The position numbers were made by a program, and so were the translations under genes. A stretch of 64,000 nt of DNA. Source: Periplaneta americana. Its lineage: Eukaryota; Arthropoda; Insecta; Blattodea; Blattidae. A model generated the notes under the pieces. The model made no database searches. It was not told the DNA's origin and saw only the letters and a program-made list of their open reading frames with translations. The stretch is taken from assembly GCF_040183065.1 (NCBI RefSeq), contig NC_091124.1, positions 69,139,001 through 69,203,000 of the forward strand, read 5' to 3'. This document shows positions 43,697 through 45,908 of the stretch, piece by piece (positions within the stretch are counted from its first letter, which is position 1; every line of letters starts with the position of its first letter).

Positions 43697-45908
43697 GTAA
43701 TAAACAGGGAAAGGATTTATATGTAAATACATATTTACTTATAAAGCTAATATAATTTATATTTTGCATTATCTTTATGTTTCACAATGTGTAGGGTTGA
43801 AAAATCCTACTTTTATTTTCCATATTTTTCCATATTTTAGAGTTTAGTACATATTTTCGTTAATTTCCATATATTTTCCATATTTCATATAAAACAGTCC
43901 ATATTATATTAGGTTTAACAATAAAACAAAACAAAATTCCATTAACTTTTAAAAATACATTTCAACAATAGAGATTTAAACACATGTTCAGTAATCCCTT
44001 TAACATCAGAGTTATTTGAAAATTAGCAGTCCTATCAACAATGGGAAAGTAAGTTACAAAACTGTATTAATTTAATTTAAAATTTTTAACAGACTTCAGT
44101 TGTGCAGCTCAACAGTTAAATGCCAGTCAGAGTACACATAGGTTCAGTTTTGTAAATCATACTATAAAGACGGTAAATATGCCAAAAGTACGTCATTCAG
44201 TCAATTTAAAATCAAAACTAACAAGTTACATTTCAGAATTTAAAGAAGATGGTTTATCAACTGACAATAAAATATTATTTTGTAATTTGTGTCAGTGTGC
44301 AGTATCATCTACACAAAAGTTCCTGGTGCAACAACACATTACAACTAGTAAACATCAGGCCAACAAACAACTAAATTCCAAGCAGAGACAATTGTTTTTA
44401 ACACAACCAACACCATCGAATGTAAGATCTGAGTTTAACATCGACCTGTGCCGTTCTCTCATCTCTGCTGATATTCCTCTCTACAAACTAAAGAATAAGG
44501 TCTTCAGGGAATTCCTTGAAAAATATACTCAACATACAATCCCGGATGAGTCAACACTTAGGAAGACGTATGCTCCATCCATCTACGATGAGACAATACA
44601 GAAGATAAGAGATGAAATTAAAGATAGTTCAATTTGGGTTTCCATTGATGAGACTCCCGACAAAGAAGGTAGACTTGTTGGTAATGTAGTTATCGGTTTG
44701 TTAAGTGAACAATATTCTGAACGAATTCTTTTACATTGTGATGTTCTAGAAAAGTGCAATAACAAAACTATAGTTAAACTGTTCAACGAAGCTATGGGTA
44801 TCCTGTGGCCAAAGGGTATTATGTACGATAATGTGTTATTCTTTATTAGCGATGCTGCCCCTTATATGGTCAAAGCTGGACAAGCATTATCTGTTGTATA
44901 TCCTAAATTGACTCATTTTACTTGTGTGGCGCATGCATTTCATCGTGTGGCAGAAGTGGTCAGAGACAATTTCCCTAAAGTAGATTTGTTGATTTCATCA
45001 GTGAAAAAAGTATTTCTCAAAGCTCCCAGTAGAGTTAACGTGTTGAAAGAAATGTACCCTGAAATTCCATTGCCACCAAAGCCAATTTTAACTAGATGGG
45101 GTACATGGCTAGAAGCAGTTGAATATTATGCCGAACATATAGACTCTATTAACAATGTTCTCCTTGCATTGGACTCTGAAGATGCAGTCTCAATTGATAC
45201 TGCGAAAACAGTTACCTGTGACATAAGTGTGAAGAATGACTTAGCTCACATTCAGCATACATTTTCATGCATCATAAAAACGCTCAAAAGTCTCCAAAAT
45301 AGGCACCTTTCACTATCTGAAAGTTTTGAAATTATAAATAGTACTGTGGAACAACTGAATCGTGGTAGAGGTAAAGTTGCAGATGCAGTAAGAGCTAAGG
45401 TGGACACTGTACTTTCAAAAAATCCTGGATATGAAGAACTACAAAAGGTTGTTGCTGTGATGAGTGGTGAATCAACAGTGAAGATTAACTTGGACTTATC
45501 CCCAGCAGACATTGTGAAATTGAATTATGTACCAGTTACTTCTTGTGACGTCGAACGCTCTTTTAGTCAGTATAAATCTATCCTCAGAGACAATAGAAGA
45601 AGATTCACTCTTCAGCACTTGAAAGAAATGTTTGTAACCTATTGTTATGGTAACAGACAATAAAAATTGTGTTTTGTTGAAACTACATTGGAAGATAAGG
45701 TACGTCCATTATATTTTTTGTTTAGTTTGATTAAAATGTACCAATATTTAACGTACATAGTCATTTTTTTATAATTTTAAGTCCATATTTAATTCCATAT
45801 TTTGGTAAAAATCCATATTTAATTCCATATTTTGGTAAAAATAACTACATATATATTTACATATTTCATATATTTTTAGTCCATATAAATCCGTTCCCTG
45901 GTAATAAA
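43697..45908 (+). mobile_element. Apparently complete autonomous hAT transposon
   Basis: The element is 43705-45900 (2196 bp). Terminal inverted repeats are CAGGGAAAGGATTTATATG on the left and CAGGGAACGGATTTATATGG on the reverse strand at the right. The flanks are an exact 8-bp duplication GTAATAAA (43697-43704 and 45901-45908), the hAT signature. Subterminal regions on both sides are full of repeated CCATATTTT-type motifs, possible transposase-binding sites. One uninterrupted transposase gene fills the centre. It sits inside a tandem-array unit, whose interrupted sequence rejoins cleanly at the duplication. Intact gene, matching ends and intact duplication suggest a recent insertion. Confidence 0.96.
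44179..45663 (+). CDS. hAT transposase, 494 aa, apparently intact
   Basis: It encodes the enzyme expected to excise and reinsert this element by DDE chemistry in the nucleus. Visible in order: an N-terminal BED-like zinc finger (C35, C38, H53, H59); a helical DNA-binding/insertion region to about 150; VSIDETPD with a candidate first catalytic Asp at D157; [10 protein letters not shown] with D225, the likely second Asp; the hAT CxxH motif at C249/H252; the conserved RW pair in LTRWGTW (R306, W307); and the C-terminal dimerisation block [14 protein letters not shown] with E459, the probable catalytic Glu. The start is ATG 44179, the first ATG after an in-frame stop, and TAA ends it at 45661-45663. 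It is single-exon as seen. Length suits compact hAT transposases of about 500-650 residues. Of my assignments, D157 is less certain than E459. A decayed relative lies at 53030-53265. Confidence 0.93.

Follow-up and report, generated by a model that had tools for sequence, protein, structure and literature searches.

Is the 2196-bp segment at 43705-45900 of this DNA a complete hAT transposon, and might it still move? An earlier note on the window (the whole 64,000-nucleotide stretch of Periplaneta americana DNA analyzed here) had described an intact, recently inserted element. Its intact hAT anatomy is borne out by the ends, the target-site duplication, the open frame, a DUF659 match, and counterparts of five essential residues, and we are confident that the element is a structurally complete cut-and-paste hAT transposon of the CGGBP type (hAT-19-like), probably autonomous. 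It is a well-preserved new example of an already known class. Expression, DNA binding, catalysis, and present-day mobility, discussed below, are what we infer from that anatomy.

Ends, target site, and host repeat

The element begins with a left terminal inverted repeat, CAGGGAAAGGATTTATATG (43705-43723, plus strand), and ends with a right one, CAGGGAACGGATTTATATG (45882-45900, minus strand); they are identical at 18 of 19 positions, in keeping with the match reported previously. A search of the window with the 19-base pattern, in which the variable position was left open and up to three mismatches were allowed, returned just two places, both of them ends of the element, where 0.06 was expected. 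Immediately outside lies the 8-bp target-site duplication, GTAATAAA, identical at 43697-43704 and 45901-45908. Its exactness, also claimed earlier, is distinctive: 47 pairs of CAGGG and CCCTG lie 200 to 6000 bp apart in the window, and an exact 8-bp flanking duplication accompanies this element and none of the other pairs (1/47), the runner-up having 8-bp flanks with three mismatches.

The duplication agrees with the target pattern nTnnnnAn, a preference that extends to the Ac family, and disagrees with nnnTAnnn, one insertion being weak evidence on the hAT group. The first pattern is the preference of Hermes (PMC10368747) and the second the consensus for Buster (PMC3517528); the preference of the Tip group is given as not investigated in PMC3942097. 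Besides the 8-bp duplication expected of a hAT element, the 19-bp terminal repeats and the 2196-bp size fall within the limits given for these transposons, which are 5 to 27 bp and under 4 kb (PMC3517528). The length is below the 2.5- to 5-kb range given in PMC3942097.

The surrounding DNA is repeat-rich and AT-rich (GC content of 25 to 40% in 2-kb steps across the window), and an array of related repeat units, with at least two transposon insertions inside it, extends from 43300 to 49150. The empty site was reconstructed by removing the element and one copy of the duplication, and the junction was aligned to other repeat segments. Four segments that are uninterrupted at the site (43382-43522, 48525-48635, 48767-48914, and 48989-49142) match the rejoined junction, and each carries GTAATAAA as a single copy at the insertion position. 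The earlier statement that the tandem unit rejoins perfectly goes too far, although its conclusion holds: segments lacking the insertion do exist, but identity to them is 91 to 92%, and all four differ by 2 bp in length near the duplication, three being shorter and one longer.

A second transposon, of 1752 bp, is nested in the same host array at 46773-48524, with TA at both flanks. Its tips, which begin CACTTAGCGGCAAAAAGAATG, match at 24 of 25 aligned positions, and one open frame on the minus strand (47269-47769) encodes a partial DDE_3 transposase (E value of 1.8e-8). The joined flanks of this second transposon match four other array segments at 89 to 96% across the junction.

The transposase gene

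The transposase gene lies at 44179-45663 on the plus strand. Its 494 codons are uninterrupted, as the earlier note had it, within a stop-to-stop span of 530 codons, and the predicted protein comprises a BED-type finger, a CGGBP-like DNA-binding region, a DUF659 catalytic part, and a C-terminal dimerization motif. Among the 14 stop-free frames of 110 amino acids or more listed for the window, a listing that omits frames running off the window ends, it ranks first in length; the next has 201 codons, and none of the others listed could accommodate a complete transposase of these dimensions. An AATAAA at 45659-45664 shares bases with the stop codon, and a GT-rich stretch comes after it; together (45659-45680) they are possibly a compact polyadenylation signal.

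Two shorter frames elsewhere in the window were also inspected. A 201-codon open frame at 57431-58036 gave 11 weak Pfam matches, all under the cut-off and mostly to coiled-coil families; we take it to resemble a LINE ORF1-like fragment. A 121-codon frame on the minus strand at 40327-40692 had no Pfam match at an E value of 0.01, and presumably resembles a retrotransposon tail known in cockroach genomes.

DUF659 is part of many hAT transposases. The match to it (PF04937, E value of 3e-12, profile positions 1 to 152 of 152) covers residues 122 to 278 (44542-45012) and holds D157, D225, and C249/H252. A match to the hAT dimerization family (PF05699, Dimer_Tnp_hAT) covers residues 451 to 486 (45529-45636) and holds E459; it scored 14.2 bits (E value of 0.038) with the whole protein and 17.3 bits (E value of 0.0043) with the C-terminal 97 amino acids, under the curated cut-off of 21.4. 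The dimerization motif reported earlier is recovered as a match below the cut-off, accompanied by the Phe, Ser, and Arg residues noted at E+3, E+4, and E+14 in plant hATs (PMC6027215). A search of solved-structure sequences returned no hAT match, and its hits, all with E values of 0.14 or worse, are in our reading due to chance.

The N-terminal BED finger of a hAT transposase is present by pattern: C35-x2-C38-x14-H53-x5-H59 (44281-44355, plus strand), with L33 two residues before C35, fits the signature Cx2CxnHx3-5[H/C] (PMC3606216). The BED-like finger described before is kept as far as these four residues go; no Pfam BED model matched the transposase, and the assignment rests on the pattern together with an alignment to human CGGBP1, a hAT-derived protein. 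For this alignment, a provisional CGGBP1 sequence was used. Residues 13 to 146 of the transposase align with its residues 26 to 165 at a score of 124, compared with a maximum of 65 in 500 shuffles, and L33, C35, C38, H53, H59, P100, and P122 are all in register, the choice of prolines being our own inference. Yellan et al. (2021) highlight the zinc-binding Cys and His residues, the Leu that precedes the finger by two positions, and a pair of Pro residues in the Hermes-type region (PMC8097297); each has a counterpart here relative to the provisional CGGBP1 sequence, P100 and P122 being the putative prolines. The CGGBP domain model of the same study picks 29 of 824 hATs, mainly hAT-19 (PMC8097297). 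The N-terminal alignment points to this CGGBP-type, hAT-19-like group.

Could the frame instead have been taken over from a hAT transposase by the host, as CGGBP1 was? CGGBP1 has 167 amino acids and ends before any catalytic part. Domestication has befallen CGGBP-type hATs dozens of times (PMC8097297), and our protein has the DNA-binding region, but here the terminal repeats, the exact target duplication, the subterminal arrays, and the catalytic residues are all kept, and the vast majority of host CGGBPs have introns and/or fewer than 200 amino acids (PMC8097297). We consider domestication very improbable and treat the frame as the gene of a transposon.

Five residues, D180, D248, R318, W319, and E572 in Hermes numbering, are given as essential in a survey of plant hATs (PMC6027215). 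By motif and spacing, their counterparts are D157, D225, R306, W307, and E459. The earlier note had proposed D225 and E459 as candidate catalytic residues and had recognized the RW pair, and these correspond to the Hermes positions; the first catalytic Asp, D157, had gone unnamed. The two Asp residues are 68 apart here, 68 apart in Hermes, and 66 apart in Ac. C249 and H252 fit the CxxH motif, which is critical for hairpin formation in Kat1 (PMC4763223).

The sequence shows two departures, both worth comparing with the element's own subgroup. First, where Hermes has Trp (W182, two residues beyond the first Asp), our protein has Thr (T159), a point on which the earlier note was silent. W182 is needed for efficient hairpins in Hermes, and cleavage is undetectable in the Kat1 W312A mutant (PMC4763223). 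Since W182 is outside the five essential residues of PMC6027215, we treat this Trp as not defining the hAT superfamily. Second, the distance from the Arg of the RW pair to the catalytic Glu is 153 residues, about 100 shorter than in Hermes (254) or Ac (256). The Hermes octamer owes its cohesion to a swapped helix in the insertion domain (PMC10368747).

The first departure bears on whether the element, intact in outline, is already inactive, through a missense change (for example, at the W182 position, or elsewhere and not recognizable from one sequence) or through silencing. T159, as the counterpart of Hermes W182 and Kat1 W312, is the residue that would favor such a loss. Set against it are the five essential-residue counterparts, the CxxH motif, and the C-terminal residues, all retained; moreover, related insect hATs often have DET-type motifs, and a Thr at position 159 may accordingly be usual in this subgroup. 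Inactivity is a possibility to which we give a minority share, and we continue with the reading of a structurally complete, probably autonomous transposon.

Subterminal repeats

Both noncoding ends are rich in a short repeat, as the earlier note had observed; the repeat is of the CCATATTT type. Five TCCATAT sites form a left array at 43819-43904, with CCATAT starting at 43820, 43830, 43867, 43878, and 43899. On the right, four lie in an exact 30-bp tandem duplication at 45782-45842 (CCATAT starts at 45783, 45795, 45813, and 45825), and a fifth, at 45880-45886, overlaps the right terminal repeat. TCCATAT ranks first among all 7-mers of the two ends, with 10 copies against a mean of 0.24 and a maximum of 2 in 400 dinucleotide shuffles; because 4 of the 10 are in the tandem duplication, about 8 are independent. 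All 10 are on one strand, and CCATAT occurs five times per end, always on the plus strand. Neighboring sites pair up at spacings of 10, 11, 12, and 12 bp; both 12-bp pairs come from the duplicated unit. With up to one mismatch, CCATATTT is found 13 times in the ends, all on the plus strand, and not at all in the coding region. Exact copies in the element number 7 against a mean of 0.157, a count reached in none of 1000 shuffles.

We asked how far these repeats could be the chance output of AT-rich DNA. The element ends are AT-rich, 4 of the 10 exact sites belong to one 30-bp tandem duplication, and the same motifs occur elsewhere: the window has 13 copies of CCATATTT, distributed over both strands, with 7 inside the element, and 64 copies of CCATAT, of which the element ends hold 10 and the coding region 1, on the opposite strand. 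The shuffle comparisons for both motifs, the top place of TCCATAT in an unbiased ranking, and the restriction to a single strand argue the other way, and make chance an improbable source.

The four hAT proteins for which there were motifs had matches to them in their own subterminal regions, and the motifs obtained for hATs from Rhodnius and Locusta were AT-rich (PMC8097297). Because CGGBP-type hATs have such matches in their own subterminal sequences, the end repeats are likely, as the earlier note proposed, to be binding sites for the transposase, a putative role that rests on this analogy and on the enrichment. In Hermes, LE-STR2 to STR7 are in antisense and RE-STR1 to STR5 in sense orientation (PMC10368747); should that convention start at the tip of each end, these Hermes repeats would likewise run in one direction along the element. 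A literature search for TCCATATTT in connection with transposons found no paper, and the element may still be described in repeat libraries.

These features suggest how the element would move. One open reading frame, which stays open with no intron, would supply the transposase. By way of its BED finger and Hermes-type DNA-binding region, the protein would attach to the subterminal TCCATATTT repeats on either side and so draw the two tips to each other, a core of D157, D225, and E459 would cut at CAGGG/CCCTG, and insertion across an 8-bp staggered target would leave GTAATAAA on both sides. The RW-to-Glu region in Hermes includes the helix that holds the octamer ring together. As a speculative extension, to which we attach little weight, a compact hAT lineage in which this region is some 100 residues shorter and the W182-type aromatic has been exchanged might form no ring and might instead gain avidity from same-strand TCCATATTT arrays, paired 10 to 12 bp apart, at both ends.

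Age, relatives, and known systems

The age of the insertion was approached through the open frame. We used a neutral-decay formula in which 4.25% of random substitutions are nonsense (transitions weighted 2), the indel-to-substitution ratio is assumed to be 0 to 0.2, and 80% of indels are taken to break the frame; the outcome is an estimate, not a measurement. Under this assumed decay, the chance of an intact frame falls to 5% at a divergence between 4.75% and 1.0%, depending on the ratio, and is even between 1.1% and 0.23%. The open frame and the assumed decay together imply either a young copy or one that selection maintained until recently. The earlier description of the element as recently inserted is supported indirectly in this way; the exact 8-bp duplication, by contrast, dates little. 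Dating by that duplication was rejected, as it compares eight site pairs, and so was dating by the single terminal-repeat mismatch, which may be original to the family.

No second copy of the element was found in the window, where other nucleotide matches were short and AT-rich (best E value of 0.003). A minus-strand fragment at 53251-52970 is related to transposase residues 398 to 492 (38% identity, E value of 3.6e-12) and contains an in-frame stop, by which we identify it as a dead, diverged relative. It implies a longer history of such a transposase in this genome and shows that one has died before, which lends some weight to the possibility, raised above, that the present element is inactive as well. 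At 28585-28710, a weak protein match to residues 425 to 465 (E value of 0.11) is either chance or another relic.

Collections outside animals yielded no confirmed relatives. In viral contigs, there were 3 pattern matches with the whole protein, 8 with residues 83 to 310, and 45 with a two-row alignment of the C terminus; in the genome contigs of the prokaryote and virus collections, there were 59 with the whole protein and 61 with residues 83 to 310. None was confirmed. A translated search of phage and plasmid collections gave no match. As these collections are prokaryotic and viral, the lack of relatives there says little about animals. That the element is a credible source of activity, as the earlier note held, is plausible, and we judge the chances for and against its mobility at the present day to be evenly balanced.

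Should the element prove active, its transposase would offer a compact natural protein for studying how hATs find their ends. With Hermes of the housefly it has in common the nTnnnnAn 8-bp target, short imperfect terminal inverted repeats, subterminal repeats, the D-D spacing of 68, the CxxH motif, and the RW pair. Hermes differs in its RW-to-Glu distance (254 versus 153 residues), in W182 where our element has Thr, in its repeat (AAG(T/C) versus TCCATATTT), and in its length of about 3 kb versus 2.2 kb. Maize Ac likewise has counterparts of the five essential residues, with F or W at E+3, S at E+4, and R at E+14, and differs in its RW-to-Glu distance (256 versus 153 residues).

From the repeat arrays, the DNA sequence that a CGGBP-type protein should recognize can be predicted in a form open to direct testing; proteins of this family have repeatedly been turned into host DNA-binding proteins. 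CGGBP1 itself prefers CGGCGG-containing sequences (PMC8097297). The CGGBP-type hATs, mainly hAT-19 and including those of Rhodnius prolixus and Locusta migratoria (PMC8097297), resemble our element in having a BED-type finger followed by a CGGBP1-like region, and, as compared with their published description instead of their sequences, have the highlighted residues and AT-rich subterminal repeats in common with it.
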